Shown: positions 6,713 through 22,387 of the stretch, one piece after another
Numbering within the stretch: position 1 is the stretch's first letter
Layout: every line of letters starts with the position of its first letter
IMG/VR virus record: IMGVR_UViG_3300032236_001226
Span: 1-24,654 of that record
Reading direction: 5' to 3' (one strand)
Source: a virus
Length of the DNA stretch: 24,654 nucleotides
The notes under the pieces: model-generated
What the model was told of the DNA's origin: nothing
The model's input: only the letters and a program-made list of their open reading frames with translations
Database searches by the model: none
Translations under genes and position numbers: made by a program

Positions 6713-6775
6713 CGACACGCCGAGATCACGAGAGACTAATATCACATCGTAACCGACACGCCCGAGCGGGCGCGG
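6713..6775. repeat. intergenic composite repeat, site D
   Basis: Two CGACACGCC copies (6713-6721, 6754-6762). The second is preceded by ATATCACATCGTAA and followed by the CGAGCGGGCGCGGC hairpin arm, as at site C. It lies between the 37-residue gene stop and the promoter at 6682-6705. Confidence 0.75.
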
Positions 6776-6786
6776 CCCAGCGTTAG

Positions 6787-9312: not shown

Positions 9313-9375
9313 ATCGGACATCTTAAAATGTGAATTACAACACACGTAAAGCGACACGCCCGAGCGGGCGCGGGC
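9313..9375. repeat. intergenic composite repeat, site G
   Basis: AATCGGACATC, AATGTGA, ACACACGTAAAG, then CGACACGCC (9352-9360) and the hairpin arm CGAGCGGGCGCGGG. Same order as sites C and D. No gene lies in 9291-9451. Confidence 0.75.
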
Positions 9376-9407
9376 AAAAGTTGAACTTTCAATTAATTAT
9401 TATGGAT

Positions 9408-9693: not shown

Positions 9694-9864
9694 TTACTTT
9701 GAGGTTTTCACCATAGCAAAACGATAAGAGCCATTTGCTAGAGTTAAACCAACACGAGTTAGTTTATTGTTGATTGGTGTGAAATCACGAATACGCCCCG
9801 TGATACCTGTCTTGCTTGTTGTAAATAAATCTCCGATTTGATATGTATATCCGTTGAGTGACAT
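9694..9864 (-). CDS. small beta-barrel-like protein, paralogue A
   Basis: The protein has 56 residues (MSLNGYTYQIGDLFTTSKTG...). The pattern YQ[IV]GDLFTT.K...TG.I..., then N...V.L...G..RF, is shared with the gene just upstream at 9949-10110. Alternating beta strands with a GD turn suggest a small SH3/KOW-like barrel. AAAAGGAAAA precedes the ATG. Function unknown. Confidence 0.72.
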   Translation of the reverse strand: MSLNGYTYQIGDLFTTSKTGITGRIRDFTPINNKLTRVGLTLANGSYRFAMVKTSK

Positions 9865-9948: not shown

Positions 9949-10110
9949 TTAGATTGTTACTGTGGTGAAGCGTTCCTCACCATCAACATCAAGAAGCACA
10001 AGTGTTGTGTTAGCGTTCTTTGGCTCTATTGCCTTGATTACGCCTGTAACCTTTGACTTCTGTGTTGTGAACAAGTCGCCTACCTGATAAGTCTTATTTG
10101 CTACTGTCAT
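9949..10110 (-). CDS. small beta-barrel-like protein, paralogue B
   Basis: The protein has 53 residues (MTVANKTYQVGDLFTTQKSK...). It shares the GDLFTT.K...TG.I core with 9694-9864 and ends EERFTTVTI. AAAAGGAAAAG lies before the ATG. First gene of a two-gene unit from the promoter at 10146-10169. Tandem duplication is the simplest origin. Function unknown. Confidence 0.72.
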   Translation of the reverse strand: MTVANKTYQVGDLFTTQKSKVTGVIKAIEPKNANTTLVLLDVDGEERFTTVTI

Positions 10111-10145: not shown

Positions 10146-10169
10146 ATTCTATCACCTAGCACTGACATT
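10146..10169 (-). promoter_or_regulatory. 24-bp TGTCAG promoter, copy 10
   Basis: AATGTCAGT, six bases, TGA, TAGAAT. It starts 4 nt after the stop of the secreted-peptide gene. Drives 10110 to 9694. Confidence 0.74.
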
Positions 10170-10173
10170 GGTG

Positions 10174-10311
10174 TTAGTGCTTTTTGTGGGTGTAGAAATT
10201 ATAGTGTGTTGTATAGCCCTTGATTGGGCGGGGCTTGATGGTTTTGGCATTAGCACTAGGCATAAAAGCCCATATAACTATTACTGCCCAAATAATATGA
10301 ATATATTTCAT
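10174..10311 (-). CDS. 45-residue secreted or membrane-anchored peptide
   Basis: The first 22 residues look like a Sec signal peptide: MKYIH, a hydrophobic core IIWAVIVIWAF, then MPSANA with a good A-x-A cleavage site. The predicted mature part has 23 residues, is basic and aromatic (KTIKPRPIKGYTTHYNFY, THKKH). The ATG at 10311 overlaps the stop of the 28-residue gene as TAATG; an in-frame ATG at 10329 is an alternative. It may act in the cell envelope or on neighbours. No homologue is recognised. Confidence 0.62.
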   Translation of the reverse strand: MKYIHIIWAVIVIWAFMPSANAKTIKPRPIKGYTTHYNFYTHKKH

Positions 10312-10397
10312 TAGTCTAAGTGACCCCATTTCTTGTTATCATGGATAGTATACACTATGGCACTGACAAGCAATGTTAGTTTAATTATAGTAATCAC
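10311..10397 (-). CDS. 28-residue membrane microprotein, GTG start
   Basis: The sequence opens MITIIKLTLLVSAIVYT (one hydrophobic helix) and ends IHDNKKWGHLD. It starts with GTG overlapping the TAG of the upstream gene (TAGTG) and ends in a TAATG overlap with the secreted-peptide gene. Both couplings support it. The two neighbours may form a membrane-acting pair. Confidence 0.55.
   Translation of the reverse strand: MITIIKLTLLVSAIVYTIHDNKKWGHLD
10347..10370 (-). promoter_or_regulatory. weak 24-bp TGTCAG promoter-like match, inside a gene
   Basis: TTGTCAGT and TATACT have the standard spacing, but the TG of the extended -10 is out of place and the match lies wholly within the 28-residue coding frame. 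It could be an internal promoter for 10174-10311 or chance. Confidence 0.35.
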
Positions 10398-10543
10398 TAG
10401 AGCACCTCATCTACATCAAAATCGGCTACCTTAACGAATACATCAGGCGTATCGCTATCCTCTGCTAGTTCATCTAGCATAGATTGGTATTCATCATTTA
10501 ACTCTGACCAGCGGTCTGTATTTACTTTATCAAAACTATACAT
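10397..10543 (-). CDS. 48-residue acidic protein
   Basis: The sequence opens MYSFDKVNTDRWSELNDEYQ and is strongly acidic to its end (LAEDSDTPDVF, DFDVDEVL). AGGAAAT precedes the ATG. Such acidic small phage proteins can mimic DNA or act as inhibitors, but that is only a possibility here. First of a three-gene unit. Confidence 0.66.
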   Translation of the reverse strand: MYSFDKVNTDRWSELNDEYQSMLDELAEDSDTPDVFVKVADFDVDEVL

Positions 10544-10590: not shown

Positions 10591-10614
10591 AGGGTATCAC
10601 ATAAGGCTGACATT
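10591..10614 (-). promoter_or_regulatory. 24-bp TGTCAG promoter, copy 12
   Basis: AATGTCAGC, six bases, TGA, TACCCT: the weakest -10 of the set. TTGAT lies just upstream of the element. Drives 10543 to 10174. Confidence 0.66.
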
Positions 10615-11379: not shown

Positions 11380-11514
11380 ATGGAATCTTGTGAGAAATGT
11401 TGGCGGGATTACAAAGAAACAATTCATACCAATAAAGGTATATTTCACTACTGCGGATTACATACAAAAGAACTTAAAGAAGAGCTACAATCAAAAAACG
11501 AATCTTTTTACTAA
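11380..11514 (+). CDS. 44-residue zinc-finger protein, near-leaderless
   Basis: The sequence opens MESCEKCWRDYKETIHTN and has HYCGLH in the middle, giving C-x2-C, 17 residues, C-x2-H. The rest is a charged helix (TKELKEELQSKNESFY). There is no ribosome-binding site because the message starts about 2 nt before the ATG. It is the only small plus-strand gene here and converges on 11511-12293 with a 4-bp overlap of the two stop regions. A regulatory role is a guess. Confidence 0.68.
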   Translation: MESCEKCWRDYKETIHTNKGIFHYCGLHTKELKEELQSKNESFY

Positions 11515-12293
11515 ATTCCTAGATCAATATCGGTTATATAATAAGTTCCGTAGAAATTTTGAGCAATTCTGCGTGTCAAAATATGATAAAGAACTTGGCG
11601 GGAGACAGAAAGATCAGCAAAATCAAAGGTGTCAAGATAATCTAGTGCAATTTGAGCATCATTTTCATCTATAGCGTGCTTTCCTTGGAGCGGGGATGCA
11701 GAAATCTTGTCAAAAACCTTATTTACAATGCTTAGATCTCTTAAAATTTTGTCGGGAAACCAAGAATCTTCTCCTCTATCTTTTTTTGCTGGATAAATAT
11801 GGCACGGGGAGATAGCAAAAGAACCTTTTGTCCATGCTACATTAGGAAATTTAGTCTTAATATAAGATTCTTCTTCTTCAAACCATTCTATGAGTCTCTC
11901 AACTCGTGGATTTTCAGATTTTAGAGCATTTTTCCATCTTGTATCAGCAATATGCTGTTTTCCATTGCGATTTCTAGCTTGAGAAAAGACGGGAAGTCTA
12001 GAAACTAGATCATTTGCCTTAATTTCAACTCCATTATAAGACTTTCTCTCTATCTGATAATTAACTTCCTCTAGACAGGTTCTCTTTGGCCTAATTTTGC
12101 CCAATTCAGCTAGTTCTGAGTCTGTACATGAAAGGAGATACTCATTTTGAGTATAATGGGCTTCTAGGCCATATGTAAGATGATTTAGACCAGACTTTGG
12201 AATCATGAAAAAATACTTGTCAGTATAAATGTGACATAGATCACTTTCTATGACATAGAAAATATCTTTGCAAACATTACTAATCGGTAGCAT
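11511..12293 (-). CDS. hypothetical 260-residue protein
   Basis: I recognise no family. The N-terminal 70 residues are beta-rich and aromatic (DIFYVIESDLCHIYTDKYFF). The middle is basic and charged (VFSQARNRNGKQHIADTRWK, WFEEEESYIKTKF). The C-terminus is helical with a Tyr-rich end (QNFYGTYYITDIDLGI). It overlaps the 91-residue gene by 14 nt and is the last gene of the lysis-like minus-strand operon. Confidence 0.75.
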   Translation of the reverse strand: MLPISNVCKDIFYVIESDLCHIYTDKYFFMIPKSGLNHLTYGLEAHYTQNEYLLSCTDSELAELGKIRPKRTCLEEVNYQIERKSYNGVEIKANDLVSRLPVFSQARNRNGKQHIADTRWKNALKSENPRVERLIEWFEEEESYIKTKFPNVAWTKGSFAISPCHIYPAKKDRGEDSWFPDKILRDLSIVNKVFDKISASPLQGKHAIDENDAQIALDYLDTFDFADLSVSRQVLYHILTRRIAQNFYGTYYITDIDLGI

Positions 12294-12822: not shown

Positions 12823-13305
12823 TCACTGATAAATTAATCGTTCAGCTAAGTCGCCAGGGGTCACAGTATGGTCAGGCATACCAGTTAAATCAATCCCAGC
12901 GTCCCTATAAGCCAATGAAACCAATTCTGAGCAGATCAGTCCGTGCTTCATGGCAAGGTGCTCAAAAAGGCGTGTGTTCGCTAAAAACTTAAGTCCAATT
13001 ATTCTGAGAAGAATATTTCCAATATCTAAGAAGCCATATGGCTGACCCACAAAATGGTGTGCTGCAGCAACAATCTTGCCCCTAGTATTATCATCAATAT
13101 TTTCATGCTGATTCCAAGCAATTTTAGGATATTGATTTGCAAGAGAAATAACTACTCCTGTCGGACGAGCCTCAATTATTTGGCCGTCACCAATATATAT
13201 GAATGCATGATTCCATCTTGAGATTGTTCCAAATTGAATTAGCTTTGCAGCCCATCCACTTGTTCTAACAACTCCGTAGTCTCCAGGCTTTGGTTCATAC
13301 GACAT
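12823..13305 (-). CDS. permuted NlpC/P60 (YiiX-like) hydrolase
   Basis: The protein has 160 residues. Motifs appear in the circularly permuted papain-like order: RWNHAFIYIG with H33, IIEARPTG with E45, and GLICSELVSLAYRDAG with C125 as probable nucleophile. The N-terminal PKPGDYGVV is also typical. Members cleave peptide or amide bonds, often in peptidoglycan or lipids. It lies two genes after a secreted transglycosylase, so a peptidoglycan endopeptidase in lysis is the likely role. No signal peptide. It overlaps the upstream gene by 11 nt. Confidence 0.82.
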   Translation of the reverse strand: MSYEPKPGDYGVVRTSGWAAKLIQFGTISRWNHAFIYIGDGQIIEARPTGVVISLANQYPKIAWNQHENIDDNTRGKIVAAAHHFVGQPYGFLDIGNILLRIIGLKFLANTRLFEHLAMKHGLICSELVSLAYRDAGIDLTGMPDHTVTPGDLAERLIYQ

Positions 13306-13540
13306 TTTCTACCTCTGTTATTCTCTGAATTAAATTTTGATAAAGTTGTAAGCCAGCGATTTGCTTATACCCACATGCTGTACAGTATAGCATGACTTTA
13401 TTATCCTTTTCGGTATGCATTAGCCAGTAAACTGCTTGTCCACCAGGAACAAAGTCGCTCTCATGATTGGGACAGGCGAGAGGTTTTACCCTGCCCGCCT
13501 GTGCCAAGTTATAGTATTTTGAAAAGACTTGAATTAGCAT
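13295..13540 (-). CDS. small zinc-ribbon-like protein
   Basis: The protein has 81 residues. A C-x2-H (CPNH, residues 23-26) and a C-x2-C (CTAC, 53-56) flank beta strands (AVYWLMHTEKDNKVMLYC), a single zinc ribbon of a type common in phage structural or lysis regions. It overlaps both neighbours (7 and 11 nt). Function unknown. Confidence 0.78.
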   Translation of the reverse strand: MLIQVFSKYYNLAQAGRVKPLACPNHESDFVPGGQAVYWLMHTEKDNKVMLYCTACGYKQIAGLQLYQNLIQRITEVENVV

Positions 13541-14223
13541 TCTAGTGCTATGTTCGCCTTCTTGAATACAGATTCAACATATTGCAAGACCGTAGGGTTG
13601 CCAGGAACATGCTTTGACCATAGTCTAACATTATTTGCACGGCTTGGTAGTAAATGTGCTGCCACTGCCTTATCCCAACTTCCATACTTCTTGTAAGATG
13701 ACTGAAGTTCAGAAATCATTCTGCTATCCTGAACCCAAGCTGGAGCCTTGCACGGATTCTTGTAACCCATGTAGTTGTTCCATGTTGATCGCATGTATTG
13801 ATAAGCTCCACATGCACTGCTTGAATAAGAGTGACGAGTATACGACCCTGCTCCACCAGTTTCCTGGGCTTTGATCGCATTCGCCAGTCTTGATATGATT
13901 ACCCGCTTGTCTACTCTTGATGCTAAATTTAGCTTTACGCTATATGCGGGCATTAAAAAATTGTTTCTAGTGGTAAGATCATTAATAAAATAAAGTGTCT
14001 TATGCTTTATCTTTACTTTATTATTAATATATTTATTATATATAATATCTTTTATATTAACTAAGTTAACATATTTATTAATATATAATATATTACTATT
14101 ATACACAATTGTTTCTGCCTGTAGTGCATTTGCGGTATTATTTCCACTAATAAATAGTGTGAGAATAGTCACACATACCATAAACCACACTGTTCTTATC
14201 CTTGTTTTGTTCTCATTGTTCAT
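13534..14223 (-). CDS. secreted lytic transglycosylase-like lysin
   Basis: The protein has 229 residues from MNNENKTRIRTVWFMV; the ATG at 14223 has a near-perfect AAGGAGGT. Residues 1-33 form a Sec signal peptide ending TANA. Residues 34-105 are an Asn/Tyr/Ile/Lys-rich stretch encoded by extremely AT-rich DNA. Residues 110-205 are lysozyme-like: AIKAQETGG with E121 as probable catalytic acid, SACGAYQYMRSTWNNYMGY, then AVAAHLLP. This fold cleaves the glycan strand of peptidoglycan. It heads the minus-strand lysis-like operon. Confidence 0.83.
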   Translation of the reverse strand: MNNENKTRIRTVWFMVCVTILTLFISGNNTANALQAETIVYNSNILYINKYVNLVNIKDIIYNKYINNKVKIKHKTLYFINDLTTRNNFLMPAYSVKLNLASRVDKRVIISRLANAIKAQETGGAGSYTRHSYSSSACGAYQYMRSTWNNYMGYKNPCKAPAWVQDSRMISELQSSYKKYGSWDKAVAAHLLPSRANNVRLWSKHVPGNPTVLQYVESVFKKANIALEC

Positions 14224-14246
14224 TTTGAACCTCCTTGAGGAAAGAG

Positions 14247-14302
14247 TAGTAAAATCTATCGTACCATGATACAATAAGAAAAACAAGCGAATAGGATAAT
14301 TT
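14247..14302. promoter_or_regulatory. divergent overlapping promoters
   Basis: Leftward: TTGTTT (14286-14281), 17-bp spacer, TACGAT (14263-14258), serving the transglycosylase operon. Rightward: extended -10 TGATACAAT (14267-14275) with +1 near 14282, serving the gene at 14303. The two overlap, so use of one may hinder the other. Confidence 0.58.
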
Positions 14303-17301: not shown

Positions 17302-17646
17302 ATGGCAATCTACGAGACTAATTATGAAATTGTTCAAGGTGATACTTGGGAAATTACAGTACCAGTAACTGACCTTTCAGGTGCTCCCGTCACAAATCTT
17401 ACTGGGTATACTTTTGATGTTCAGGTAAGAGACAAAGAAGGCGGACATATTCTTTGTGCAGAAGCAACACTTGGAAATGGAGTCACAGCAAGCTCGGGCA
17501 ACATTATAGTTTCCTTTACTCCAGATCAAACAAGTAATTTTAATTTGCCAAAATCTGTTTATCAAATTCAAGCAATTTATCCAAACCTTAAGAGAAAAAC
17601 CCTTCAGGTTGGTTGGATACAAGTTCATCCAGCAATTATCCAATAG
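17302..17646 (+). CDS. small beta-sandwich tail-type protein (BppU-N/Ig-like)
   Basis: The protein has 114 residues: YEIVQGDTWEITVPVTDLSG at the start, then NLTGYTFDVQVRDKEGG and YQIQAIYPN. A QGDT opening followed by LTGYTF and alternating strands resembles the N-terminal domain of baseplate BppU-like and related phage proteins. It may be a fibre-attachment or decoration protein. Its ATG lacks a clear ribosome-binding site. Confidence 0.6.
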   Translation: MAIYETNYEIVQGDTWEITVPVTDLSGAPVTNLTGYTFDVQVRDKEGGHILCAEATLGNGVTASSGNIIVSFTPDQTSNFNLPKSVYQIQAIYPNLKRKTLQVGWIQVHPAIIQ

Positions 17647-17656
17647 AAAGAAAAAT

Positions 17657-18670
17657 ATGAATCTAGTCCAAAAAGCTGTAGAAGCTGGTGGAAAGCTGGC
17701 TCCTCTTGTCATACATAAAAATACAACTGCTGGAACTGGACTAATGAATCCATCTATATTTATAGATGATGATGGAGATATTTTAGTAAATCTTCGCCAT
17801 ACAAACTACACACTATTTCATTCAGAAAATAATCAAATGTTTCCTTCAAGATGGGGACCATTATCATATTTACATCCAGAAAAAGATCCAAAGCTTGGAA
17901 CCACTAATTATCTTTTAAGATTAGATAAAGACCTTAAGATGATTAATCATACTGTAATTGATACTTCTGCTCTTGATGTCCCGCCCGTTTGGGAGTTTGT
18001 TGGTTTAGAAGATGCCAGATTAGTTAAGTGGGATGGAAAATATTATACTATTGGTGTGCGTCGTGATGTAAAACCAAGCGGCGAAGGTCGCATGGAACTA
18101 TGTGAAATTGAAATTGATAAAGATAATTGGATTGTTAAAGAAATATCAAGAATTCGTATACCAGCTCCAGGTGCTGATATTTCATATTGCGAAAAGAATT
18201 GGTATCCAATTATAGATAAGCCATATCATTTTGTTAAATGGACTTCTCCTACTGAAATCGTAAAAACATATCCTGAGCTTCCCGCCCGATGTGAACAAGT
18301 TTCTCTTAATAAAACAGACATACCTTTTGTAGCAGATCAAAGGGGCGGGTCACAATTGATTCCTTGGGGAGACTACTATATTTGTATAACACATGAAGTA
18401 AATCTATTTAGTAATTATTTAAGTCAAAAAGATGGATATTATAGGCACAGATTGTGCGTATGGGATAAAGAATATAATCTAATTGGTATTTCTCCAGAAA
18501 AGTTTTCCTTCTTAGATGCTAGAATTGAATTTGTAGCTGGTATTGCTGAATATGATAATAGCCTTTTAATATCATTTGGATTTCAAGATAATGCTGCTTT
18601 TGTTTTAAAAACACCAGACACAGTGGTAGATGAAATGATTCAGGAGGCATTAAATCATGGCAAGAATTGA
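17657..18670 (+). CDS. GH130/GH43-like five-bladed-propeller glycosidase or phosphorylase
   Basis: The protein has 337 residues from MNLVQKAVEAGG; the ATG at 17657 follows AGAAAG and is preferred over an upstream TTG inside the previous gene. Motifs: GLMNPSIF (28-35), NLRHTNY (45-51), FVGLEDARLVKWDGKYYT (114-131), the typical G-[IL]-E-D-x-R of GH130-type enzymes, then ADISYCEKNW. Such enzymes act on mannosides or related sugars. The partner gene downstream overlaps by 14 nt. Exact substrate unknown; a sugar-transfer role is also possible. Confidence 0.74.
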   Translation: MNLVQKAVEAGGKLAPLVIHKNTTAGTGLMNPSIFIDDDGDILVNLRHTNYTLFHSENNQMFPSRWGPLSYLHPEKDPKLGTTNYLLRLDKDLKMINHTVIDTSALDVPPVWEFVGLEDARLVKWDGKYYTIGVRRDVKPSGEGRMELCEIEIDKDNWIVKEISRIRIPAPGADISYCEKNWYPIIDKPYHFVKWTSPTEIVKTYPELPARCEQVSLNKTDIPFVADQRGGSQLIPWGDYYICITHEVNLFSNYLSQKDGYYRHRLCVWDKEYNLIGISPEKFSFLDARIEFVAGIAEYDNSLLISFGFQDNAAFVLKTPDTVVDEMIQEALNHGKN

Positions 18671-19220
18671 AGAGCTAATTGAAAATGCTTCTCACGACAT
18701 GTTTAATCCTGAGTTAAACTTTCAAATTGCACAAGAGTATGAAAGTATGGGTCAAACTGCAGCAGCAGTTTCATTTTATTTGAGAGCCGCCGAGTATGGA
18801 CATGACTCCCATCCATTAGTTGTCTATGCTTCCCTACTTAGAATGTCATTTTGCTTTGAAGATCAAACAGGTAGAGAACATACAGTTACTAATTGTTTAT
18901 TGCAAGCTATTCAATATATGCCAACAAGACCAGAAGGATATTTCTTGCTTTCCCGTTTTTATGAAAGATCTCAAAAATGGCAAGAATGTTATACATTTGC
19001 AGAGATAGGTTTGCAGAACGCAGGCAGGCTTGAAAAGCTCCCAGCCTATGTTGAATATGATGGATCTGTTTGTCTTTTATTTGAAAAAGCAGTTTCTGGA
19101 TGGTGGGTCGGGAGACAGCAAGAGTCCAAATCAATATTTAAAGACCTTCTAGAGCAAGATATACCAGACGGGTATCGTTCAACTATTGAATATAACTTAA
19201 AACTTATAGGTTCTAAATAA
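18657..19220 (+). CDS. TPR-like helical-repeat protein
   Basis: The protein has 187 residues with repeated helix pairs: NFQIAQEYESMGQTAAAVSF (about 20-39), PEGYFLLSRFYERSQKWQEC (about 91-110) and a third near the end. This resembles the TPR part often fused to glycosyltransferases (YxRAxEx...P.R.E.Y..LA.....). AGGAGG precedes the ATG and it overlaps the GH130-like gene by 14 nt, so the two products probably work together. Confidence 0.76.
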   Translation: MARIEELIENASHDMFNPELNFQIAQEYESMGQTAAAVSFYLRAAEYGHDSHPLVVYASLLRMSFCFEDQTGREHTVTNCLLQAIQYMPTRPEGYFLLSRFYERSQKWQECYTFAEIGLQNAGRLEKLPAYVEYDGSVCLLFEKAVSGWWVGRQQESKSIFKDLLEQDIPDGYRSTIEYNLKLIGSK

Positions 19221-19238
19221 CGGATTTTATAAGTATTT

Positions 19239-19247
19239 TGGTATACT
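19239..19247 (+). promoter_or_regulatory. extended -10 promoter of the fibre gene
   Basis: TGG then TATACT; predicted +1 near 19254, 3 nt before the ATG at 19257. No ribosome-binding site would be transcribed, so start would be near-leaderless. Confidence 0.48.
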
Positions 19248-19256
19248 TAGGATGTC

Positions 19257-21551
19257 ATGACAAGCAACCCTAGTAGTACGCCCAAGGGTTTTAGATACCC
19301 TATCTATTCAGATACACCAGATGTCCCTAGAGATTTAGGCAATCTGGCTTCCGACCTTGATGCATATTTAAGCGTAAATAAAGGTCCTGGTTACTTAGTC
19401 TACTCATATACCAATACAAATCTTTCAACAGGAACACAAACTTTTACTACACCAGTTGTAACAACCCCTGGCTCAACATTTAATCCCCAAGGCAGCGGTG
19501 CTTACATTGTTGGTGATCGTGTAAGAATAATCAATACTTCAAACACCTCTCAATTCCTTGAAGGAACTATTACTTCAGTTGTATCAAATACAAGTATTAC
19601 AGTAAATATATCTGTGGTAAGCGGATCTGGATCTTCTTCAACCTGGGTATTTTCTATTGCTGGATTGCAGGGCGTACAGGGTCCACAAGGAACGCAAGGT
19701 GTGCAAGGCGTACAAGGATTACAGGGTCCACAAGGAACTCAGGGCGTACAGGGAACACAAGGCATACAGGGCGTACAGGGTTTACAAGGTACTCAAGGCG
19801 TACAGGGAACACAAGGCGTACAGGGCGTACAGGGTTTACAAGGGCGTCAAGGAACGCAAGGTATACAAGGCATACAAGGACCTCAAGGAACGCAGGGTGT
19901 ACAGGGTCCACAAGGAACTCAGGGCGTACAGGGCTTACAGGGACCACAAGGCACTCAAGGAATTCAAGGTACACAAGGTGTGCAGGGAGTAGTTGGACCA
20001 GCAGGACCAGCAATTGCAATTACTCCAGTAGAAGCAGCAACTACAGGACCACTTCCAAATTCACCAACATATACGGCGGGAACACAAATAGGTGCTGATG
20101 GTGGTTATGGATATCAAGCTAAGCTTACAGCAACAACATATGGTGCATTAACAATTGATGGATATACTCCAACATTTGCAGATCTTAATGATAGAATTCT
20201 TGTTAAAGATCAAGTTGATCCAAAACAAAACGGTATTTATAATTTAATTCAAGGTGACTCAACACATTATTGGGTATTAACACGCACATCTGATTTTGAT
20301 AACTATGGAACAATTGAAGTTTCAACTGGAGTGTTTACTACAGTTTATGGTGGAACTTCAGGTTCTAATTTAGATACAACATGGATGATGGCAACACAAG
20401 ATGGCTCTGGAGTCAATGAAGGAATTGTAATTGGCACAGATCCAATAAACTGGTATAAAACAAATGGTGTTGCAATTCAGGGTATTCAGGGAACACAGGG
20501 TATTCAGGGACCGCAAGGAACTCAAGGTATTCAAGGAAACCAAGGACTACAAGGCTTTGGTTATGCACAGCTTCAAGGTGTTCAAGGCCCACAAGGTACA
20601 CAAGGCCCACAAGGCACACAGGGCGTACAAGGTACACAAGGTGTTCAAGGTATACAAGGACTCGGAACTCAAGGAATTCAGGGAATACAAGGAAATGCTT
20701 CAACTTATGCATTTGGCACTACCCCTCCATCATCCCCAGCAATTGGTCAATCATGGGTTAATACAAATGATGGAAGAACTTATGCATGGGATGGAACCGA
20801 ATGGTTTGAAACTTATGACAATTTAAGTGGAATTCAGGGTGTTCAAGGAATTCAAGGAGCTGCAACTGCAATTCCAGTAGCCACACAAGCTATTCAAGGA
20901 ATTGTATATGGCAATTCTTATGGAAGCAATATATCTTATGGGTTTAATGCAGGAAGTGACTTGACAAGCGGTTTGCAAAATGTAATTATCGGAATAAATG
21001 CAGGAACAAATTCAGGAAATGGCGTCTCTACTGGGAATAATAATATTGTTATTGGAAATTATGCACAAACATCAGGAAGCAACCAGTCTGGAGAAATAGT
21101 AATAGGAAATGGCGTTGAAGTTTTATTTAGAGTTCCAGGTGTAAATTTTATACTTTCATCAACAGGCTTACTACCCGCAAACTCTTCATCTACCGCCGCT
21201 TCTCCAGGATATATAGGTATGCCACAAAATCTTCAAAGTACATCATTTAACTTTGCAACCTACACCCTAGCATTGTCAGATATAGGAAAGCATATTTATA
21301 TAACTGGATCCGCCCCAGGAGAAACAATTTTCATTCCATCAAATGCATCTTTAGCGTTTCCAATAGGTTCAAATATAGCCGTTGTAAATATGTCAAGTGC
21401 AAATGCATCAATAGCAGTAATTAATGACAATCTTTATTTTGCAGGAACAACGGGAAATACTGGAGCAAGAACACTAGCTCCATATGGCGTAGCAACAATT
21501 CTTAAAATAGATTCAACATCATGGATAATTAGTGGAAATGGACTCTCGTAA
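19257..21551 (+). CDS. collagen-like tail fibre protein
   Basis: The protein has 764 residues. Order: N-terminal attachment-like domain (1-135, [20 protein letters not shown] then beta-rich); Gly-X-Gln collagen-like rod 1 (about 137-250, [10 protein letters not shown] repeats); a globular module (about 255-405) with [18 protein letters not shown]; rod 2 (about 407-481); a module with [21 protein letters not shown]; a short third rod near 525; a beta-helix-like part with NVIIGINAG and NNIVIGNYA repeats; and a C-terminal beta domain. Likely a trimeric receptor-binding fibre. Confidence 0.87.
19665..19994 (+). repeat. collagen-like tandem repeat, rod 1
   Basis: DNA repeats of the form CAAGGNACNCAAGGNGTNCAGGG encode Gly-X-Gln triplets. 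The 9-nt unit is degenerate at third positions, but longer blocks (27-45 nt) are nearly identical, indicating repeated recombination. Confidence 0.85.
20476..20694 (+). repeat. collagen-like tandem repeat, rod 2
   Basis: Same Gly-X-Gln coding unit as 19665-19994, interrupted by FGYAQL. It is shorter, and Ile and Pro are frequent in the X position. Confidence 0.83.
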
Positions 21552-22387
21552 TGTCTGGCATAATTCAAGGCTTTATGAACTTCATACAAGCTGGATATCG
21601 TTCATTTAGTGATACCTTCAGTAGATTAACCTCTGGGTCTCTGGGTACTTCAAGTTCTGGCGGGATGTGGAAAGCAATAAAAGGAACTTGGTACTCAAAT
21701 AATGGTACTGCAAAAACAGATGATGCAGCAAGTAATTATTCAATTGCAGCAGCACAAATGGCTAGTTCACTTGTTACGCTTACCGCCCAAAATATATCTT
21801 TGGGTACAGGAATTTCATTTTTAATTGTTGACTCAAGCAACTGGTATGCAGCCGCAGTAGTTGAAAACGATTCATACACTTATGCTTATGCATACTCAAC
21901 AATAGGATCAAGCAGCGGCTCTGGAGTTTATTATTACTACTACACAACCTCTTATACTACTTCAACTCCAGTAACTATGAATGGAGGAAAATCGTATTAT
22001 TATCATTATGGAACTGCATATACAAGAGTAGGACCAATCGCACAAACATACTACTACACAACTTATTATCCATATACAGCATATGATAATGCTCCAACTT
22101 CAGCAGCTGTTACAAATTATTTAATTAATATTTATAATTCAGTTTCAGGAACAATCACATATGTGGCACAAAGTCTTTTACCAGGAATGGCTCGTTCTTT
22201 ATCAGTTGTAATACATGGAACTTCGGCAATTGCATCAGCCTATAGCGATAATGCTCAATATAACCAGATAGGCACTGCTGTTGCTTCAATCACACCCAAT
22301 AGCAATCTTCATGGTATTATTATAGTGCCGTCGGCACAAAATCAAGGCAATACAATAGGCCAATTCAATGCCTACGTAACAGGATAG
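21551..22387 (+). CDS. tyrosine-rich LamG-like minor tail protein
   Basis: The protein has 278 residues. The N-terminal half (SFSDTFSRLTSGSLGTSSSG, then MWKAIKGTWYSNNGTAKTDD) matches the opening of LamG/concanavalin-like jelly-roll domains on phage tails. Residues about 125-185 are extremely Tyr/Thr/Ser-rich (YYYYYTTSYTTSTP, YYYTTYYPYTAYDN), splitting the domain like a long insertion. The C-terminal part resumes beta strands (LHGIIIVPSAQNQG). It starts in a TAATG overlap with the fibre gene, so the two products are probably made together. Confidence 0.72.
   Translation: MSGIIQGFMNFIQAGYRSFSDTFSRLTSGSLGTSSSGGMWKAIKGTWYSNNGTAKTDDAASNYSIAAAQMASSLVTLTAQNISLGTGISFLIVDSSNWYAAAVVENDSYTYAYAYSTIGSSSGSGVYYYYYTTSYTTSTPVTMNGGKSYYYHYGTAYTRVGPIAQTYYYTTYYPYTAYDNAPTSAAVTNYLINIYNSVSGTITYVAQSLLPGMARSLSVVIHGTSAIASAYSDNAQYNQIGTAVASITPNSNLHGIIIVPSAQNQGNTIGQFNAYVTG

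Follow-up and report, generated by a model that had tools for sequence, protein, structure and literature searches.

A predicted exported peptide with exchanged mature ends in uncultured freshwater phages and its possible role in superinfection exclusion

The stretch of DNA analyzed here, referred to as the window, is the 24,654-base virus record IMGVR_UViG_3300032236_001226 of IMG/VR. It carries on its minus strand a pair of small overlapping genes, B and C, the second of which encodes a predicted Sec-exported peptide. This pair recurs in a group of uncultured freshwater viruses that appear to infect Actinobacteria, and the mature end of C falls into classes that seem to have been exchanged between closely related phages. 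It is tentatively proposed, with a probability of about 0.36, that C has its site of action at the infected-cell surface and serves in superinfection exclusion, keeping rival phages out; its most likely place of action is outside the infected cell.

Results

The original prediction described a three-gene unit linked by TAGTG and TAATG, and three overlapping frames, A, B and C, were indeed read directly at the coordinates that it gave, all on the minus strand. A (10397..10543) starts with ATG and encodes an acidic protein of 48 aa; its final codons contain GAGGTG, a possible ribosome-binding site for B. The start codon of B (10311..10397, minus strand) is a GTG inside TAGTG that overlaps the A stop, and the product is a 28-aa peptide, MITIIKLTLLVSAIVYTIHDNKKWGHLD, with one membrane segment according to its hydrophobicity profile. 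C (10174..10311, minus strand) begins with an ATG inside TAATG, overlapping the B stop, and encodes a 45-aa exported-peptide precursor composed of MKYIHIIWAVIVIWAFMPSANA followed by KTIKPRPIKGYTTHYNFYTHKKH. An alternative in-frame upstream ATG would extend C to 51 aa; its relatives instead use the start that overlaps the B stop. The gene overlaps suggest that translation of B and C is coupled. After C lies D (9949..10110, minus strand), a 53-aa protein that is a neighbor outside the unit. This anatomy of the B-C locus is considered near certain.

In A-type proteins of the window (10397-10543) and of loci L038, L039, L047 and L065 (L numbers designate loci, L001 being the window), the N-terminal halves are unlike, starting with MSYSFD.. 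or MSYTYSWE... Despite this, a DFDxDEVL-like end is kept, whose codons may also supply the following gene with a ribosome-binding site. The minus-strand genes at 9694-9864 and 9949-10110 start alike (YTYQIGDLFTTSKTG and KTYQVGDLFTTQKSK, respectively) and look like tandem paralogs. Elsewhere in the window, a GC-rich intergenic element containing GACACGCCCGAGCGGGCGCGG is repeated at 6734-6784 and 9332-9382, the two copies being 75% alike over 51 bases.

A promoter-like element with fixed spacing, TGTCAG-N7-TGnTAnnnT, was found in 13 exact copies in the window, against 0.03 expected from dinucleotide shuffles. All 13 copies are on the minus strand and none is on the plus strand, and a looser pattern recovered the same 13. 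Their first bases are at positions 886, 1775, 3464, 4024, 6471, 6703, 7844, 7960, 9288, 10167, 10612, 10959 and 11173. One exact copy (10591..10612) stands before A-B-C, and the next (10146..10167) begins 6 bases past the C stop, where it forms the edge of the exchanged piece in relatives. Because the three genes are bounded by two of these 13 copies, all of which share one strand, A-B-C looks like one transcription unit. The 11 related loci that were scanned contained from 1 to 10 copies each, on one strand per locus. The element looks like an extended -10 promoter combined with an activator box and would mark the leftward genes; its layout resembles that of T4 middle promoters. The location of C in an "early block", as it had been called, is accurate insofar as the gene lies in the leftward non-structural arm, while "early" follows from position only. 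On the plus strand, a hairpin of 10 pairs with T after it (10158-10181), overlapping both the C stop and the next promoter-like element, could terminate transcripts of that strand.

Relatives were collected from IMG/VR by scans with A as the query, which located relatives of A encoded at 20 loci, with the DNA element after C (22 loci) and with a C alignment (24 loci). Among the collected sequences, 66 when the window is included, a C profile detected C in 58, which collapsed to 26 distinct contexts stemming from loci picked by A, by the DNA pattern or by C. In all 26 contexts, the start of C overlapped the stop of B, a hydrophobic peptide of 28-44 aa, by 1, 4, 8, 11 or 17 bases; the procedure that picked B permitted gaps or overlaps of up to 30 bases and favors hydrophobic ORFs of 24-45 aa. 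D followed C in 25 of the 26. An A-type gene was directly before B in 16 contexts, and elsewhere it was after C or apart. Considering that the B overlap was found in 26/26 contexts whereas A was directly upstream in 16/26, it was concluded that B-C is the constant pair and that A is optional, so the three-gene unit stands for its last two members only.

A sample independent of C was obtained with D as bait. Relatives of D are abundant, with 307 confirmed loci in IMG/VR, and lack a significant family match. The best 80 of these 307 loci yielded 64 distinct contexts, in which C was counted only when it had an overlapping or adjoining B and satisfied the signal-peptide rule described below. By this count, B-C was before D in 33 contexts and missing in 31 and is thus common yet not universal at the D site. 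Among the 31, six (L092, L095, L101, L138, L141 and L145; identified by eye) have a B-like peptide and an A-type gene but no C, two (L124 and L159) have less than 300 bases upstream, and the remainder carry other genes.

The signal peptide of C was placed by a rule-based prediction at 10246..10311 (minus strand). It comprises 22 residues, with a short basic N-terminal part, a hydrophobic segment and then a SANA site, after which the precursor would be cut. The resulting mature part (10177..10245, minus strand), KTIKPRPIKGYTTHYNFYTHKKH, has 23 residues and a net charge of +6. A simple signal-peptide rule devised by the authors was satisfied by 26/26 distinct C relatives and, in 20 shuffled windows, by 15 of 1811 ORFs of 40-75 aa; therefore, the signal is more than a product of chance. 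When both samples were pooled, 42 distinct C proteins were obtained, and all of them had an [AVS]x[AG] site and a signal-type start. K or R follows the cleavage site in 39/42, the exceptions being L053, L083 and L091; the sites of L083 and L091 were read by eye, the script having put both too far in, and that of L039, which the first cleavage picker had set too early, was later read as ANA followed by K. Cysteine was absent from position +1 in all 42 proteins, which lack a lipobox. An export signal and a basic mature part of 22-47 residues were features of all distinct C relatives. The Sec signal, SANA cleavage site and basic mature part of the original prediction are thus borne out, and so is its notion of a phage-encoded exported peptide, which is conserved in relatives, has its own promoter-like element and belongs to the leftward non-structural arm.

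The polymorphism of the mature peptide is visible only beyond a single window. At least four classes of mature end occupy one slot between B and the promoter-like element. Class C1 (27/42) has a Cx4C loop and is typically YTYTIHR..HIxCPYxGCK; within the pattern H-x3-H-x2-C-x4-C, the first His is present in 20 of 22 C1 members and the second in 19 of 22. The window belongs to class C2, which has five members (the window, L083, L099, L116 and L118) with the end KGYT[TV]H[YF][ND]F[YF]T[HG]KKH preceded by a variable spacer; in the window, this end, IKGYTTHYNFYTHKKH, covers 16 codons at 10177..10224 on the minus strand. A GT[IV]-like segment close to the end characterizes class C3 (6/42), the pattern P.NS..W......R..R.F characterizes class C4 (3/42), and the C of L039 is an orphan outside the classes. 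The classes draw on overlapping sets of signal peptides, since near-identical starts of the type MKK..F.LVVILLLIITSPAQAR carry C3 in L082 and L087 or C4 in L013. In early alignments, the C of the window had been taken for a truncated Cx4C peptide. This reading was rejected, as the D bait brought four more members of the window's class; a targeted scan for further C2 sequences returned just these four.

Selection on the C2 end was strong. For its last 16 codons, the five sequences gave pS 0.855 and pN 0.096, a ratio of 0.11, and 73 of 111 differences were at third positions. Such strong purifying selection indicates that the C2 peptide is translated. The medians of dN/dS over the 26 contexts were 0.35 (signal), 0.36 (mature C) and 0.41 (B), and pairs with pN > pS numbered 18/325, 6/323 and 4/325, respectively; the figures for these 26 contexts are approximate, as synonymous sites are near saturation and pairs are non-independent. 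The original prediction was to be given up if the signal proved non-conserved or the frame untranslated; the signal was found to be kept, and purifying selection was detected on the coding frame.

Comparison of close phage pairs indicates that C alone has been swapped, like a cartridge. The flanks of C in L053 and L064 are 93.8% (464 bases) and 98.5% (454 bases) identical, and the C sequences are unlike. Between L039 and L051, hardly any difference is seen in the second half of B or in D, and C diverges over the whole stretch between its start and the promoter-like element. L087 and L089, with flanks of 89.5% identity over 790 bases and 92.0% over 829 bases, carry C3 and C4, and L082 and L083, with flanks of 84.8% and 86.7%, carry C3 and C2. 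L082, L083 and L089 share one identical B despite their classes being C3, C2 and C4. Across 25 contexts, the distance between mature C sequences correlated weakly with that of B (r=0.22, p=0.0025) and did not correlate with that of D (r=-0.06, p=0.71); the pairs in these tests are likewise non-independent. B is thus no class-specific partner of C. The promoter-like element marks the end of the exchanged piece, and its similarity from phage to phage could itself provide the crossing point.

The closest match to the ribonucleotide reductase (RNR) of the window was that of Streptomyces phage Mandalore (67.1% over 99%), followed by that of Coruscant (Stanwilliamsviridae; 66.4%); RNR identity to related records was 88-92% in 10/10. 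Coruscant and its relatives are the nearest named phages by RNR, and the window shares with Coruscant the glycosyltransferase-RNR order and the leftward genes alongside. The window group thus shows traits of Stanwilliamsviridae-like actinophages, namely this gene order and actinobacterial marks. It differs in that no relative of C was found in named phages and in that Coruscant, scanned over 29.9 kb, has zero copies of the promoter-like element. WhiB is described as a mark of actinobacterial phages in PMC6802176; it was present in 4/11 records, the window itself being without it. The integrase search, which covered the Phage_integrase family, found it in 0/10 related records; as the records may be fragments, gene absences are weak evidence. 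On these sequence features, the phages carrying B-C look virulent and actinobacterial.

Genes past RNR (17302-22387, and the same region in L072-L081) are strongly unlike between phages whose RNRs are 85-92% identical, and this variable region contains a candidate collagen-like tail fiber gene (19257-21551). Two candidate lysis genes are on the minus strand: one for an NlpC/P60- or YaeF-like enzyme (12823-13305) and one with a weak endolysin match (13534-14286; phrog_90, E 0.0012).

Searches for homologs of C gave no significant match in Pfam, PHROGs, NCBIfam or PADLOC or among PDB sequences. The window C had zero matches in 50,697 phage records, a C1 member had a single, chance-level match there (E=9), and two genome-contig scans detected no homologs in bacterial and archaeal genomes. 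No description of the family was found in the literature searched. Similarity to mini_HHHH was judged non-homologous: the best E was 0.00018, with 6/21 members, and when six members were rescanned, two matched at residues 5-39 (E 0.019 and 0.032), well short of the family cut-off of 40 bits. A match to a YY1 zinc-finger chain (E 0.0024, residues 42-55) was not considered homology either. An AlphaFold model of a C1 member built with 21 sequences was unreliable (mean pLDDT 59, pTM 0.20) and was set aside. By these comparisons, C is assigned to no known family, and its own family is seen in uncultured phages only.

Discussion

Superinfection exclusion had been one of the functions suggested in the original prediction, and it is the leading reading, as yet unproven. 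B-C would be a cassette with coupled translation, carried by phages that appear to be virulent and actinobacterial. C would be exported as a Sec-type precursor, trimmed after AxA, and as a small, strongly basic peptide, rich in His and Tyr and with a Cx4C loop in most relatives, it might remain at the infected-cell surface. There, it could bind a surface component or a part of the incoming phage, so that adsorption or DNA entry of rivals would be blocked. B might either hold C at the membrane or couple its translation, and the swapping of mature ends might track the surface component or the rival that needs to be blocked. The B-C overlap, the export signal, the purifying selection and the replacement of C alone speak for this proposal. 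A small basic peptide that would sit at an anionic envelope, is encoded in the non-structural arm, changes from class to class and is constant inside a class fits recognition of a variable surface component or rival.

Exclusion is also favored because many of the known proteins with this function are small and exported and have spread from phage to phage. According to PMC9586334, Llp of T5 and Cor of T1/phi80 are very small exported phage proteins with an intramolecular disulfide, to which the Cx4C motif in 27/42 C proteins may be compared; Llp has 61 residues and blocks FhuA. In contrast to C, which has an AxA site and no lipobox, Llp and Cor are lipoproteins that act on an outer-membrane receptor; C differs further in its apparently actinobacterial hosts and its coupled membrane peptide, and a PDB search found no sequence relation. 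Ltp of TP-J34, a surface lipoprotein directed against DNA injection, resembles C in being phage-encoded, variable between phages, spread by horizontal transfer and placed at a Gram-positive host surface, as C would be; according to PMC3952083, it acts on the incoming tape measure protein. However, Ltp has 142 aa, a lipid anchor, a spacer and a repeat domain and belongs to the lysogeny module of its temperate phage, none of which applies to C. The way in which C works is therefore probably nearest to that of exported exclusion proteins, yet distinct from it.

Several findings are against exclusion: C is without the lipid anchor of Llp, Cor and Ltp, L013 and L088 share RNR and a tail-region gene (distances of 0.00 and 0.02) but carry C4 and C3, C is absent from the six D contexts that retain B, and C no longer tracks the tail region when near relatives are taken out. 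A correlation of C with the tail region was dropped as support. It was r=0.18 (p=0.16, n=10) in an earlier test, r=0.42 (p=0.003, n=13) when an overly narrow gene filter was applied and r=0.29 (p=0.004, n=21; partial on RNR r=0.25, p=0.015) with near relatives included, and it was gone when L004, L037, L005 and L093 were left out (r=0.02, p=0.40, n=17). The tail-region gene used has a weak tail annotation only (phrog_3304, E 4.7e-5) and was missing in six of the 17 added loci.

A doubtful but serious alternative is that C acts on a surface or secreted component of the host, such as a wall hydrolase, a transporter, a protease or a metal-scavenging system, and thereby aids infection with no role in exclusion, the classes corresponding to host strains. 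The export of a basic, His-rich product is in line with this, and the C1 pattern H-x3-H-x2-C-x4-C would suit binding of a metal or an anionic polymer; however, this metal pattern is absent from class C2 of the window, and no host homolog or mimic appeared in the two genome scans.

It is unlikely that C diffuses between infected cells as a signal with an arbitrium-like purpose and polymorphic specificities. C is short and predicted to be secreted, its classes are discrete, and C2 combines a conserved end with a variable spacer. Polymorphic pheromones show such conserved ends, variable spacers and discrete classes. AimP, too, is short, phage-encoded, exported by Sec and conserved at its end, and C shares these traits by prediction through its signal-type start and AxA site. 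Unlike in arbitrium, no receptor gene of a known family and suitable size adjoins C, the Phage_integrase search was negative, and mature C is longer, at 22-47 aa, often with two Cys. In the neighborhood, a 260-aa ORF (11511-12293) had no match in Pfam, PHROGs or NCBIfam. Moreover, the neighbors B and D are unchanged across C classes, as the identical B of L082, L083 and L089 illustrates, so the arbitrium-like signaling to which the original prediction alluded lacks support. A related idea, which is rather unlikely, is that B-C serves in polymorphic kin recognition or signaling by virulent phages; the exchanged secreted ends would then be a class-specific mark of the infected cell, read by the phage's own kind or by rivals through a putative receptor.

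Distinctly unlikely is a bacteriocin-like antimicrobial role of C against host competitors or uninfected cells with B as the immunity peptide. C is small, basic and exported, often has a Cx4C loop and adjoins a small membrane peptide. Class IIa (pediocin-like) bacteriocins have a Cx4C loop and a YGNGV motif. They are likewise small, basic and exported, as these peptides are generally described, yet C lacks a family match, a class-specific immunity partner and the long C-terminal helix part: the type of B does not track the class of C, with which it is only weakly correlated (r=0.22), bacteriocin families were absent among the Pfam and NCBIfam matches of 21 C1 members, and YGNGV was not found in any of the 42 C sequences.

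Participation of B-C in lysis or its timing, with B as a holin-like or antiholin-like protein and C as an exported regulator, is improbable. Here, a membrane peptide is paired with an exported one, and the NlpC/YaeF-like and possible lysin genes are 2.3-4 kb away on the same strand; on the other hand, B-C is five or more genes from them and has its own promoter-like element, and exchange of C alone between like genomes would be unexpected for lysis parts. That the A, B and C frames are chance ORFs or decaying genes, as their very short length and the lack of B-C at 31/64 D contexts might suggest, is practically precluded by the pN/pS of 0.11 at the C2 end and by the overlap and signal kept in 26/26 contexts.

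Conclusions

With mature parts of 22-47 residues, the C peptides can be synthesized and tested directly. Strong purifying selection inside a class, combined with replacement of whole mature ends from one class to another, suggests that the peptides serve in recognition or in competition at the surface of the cell.
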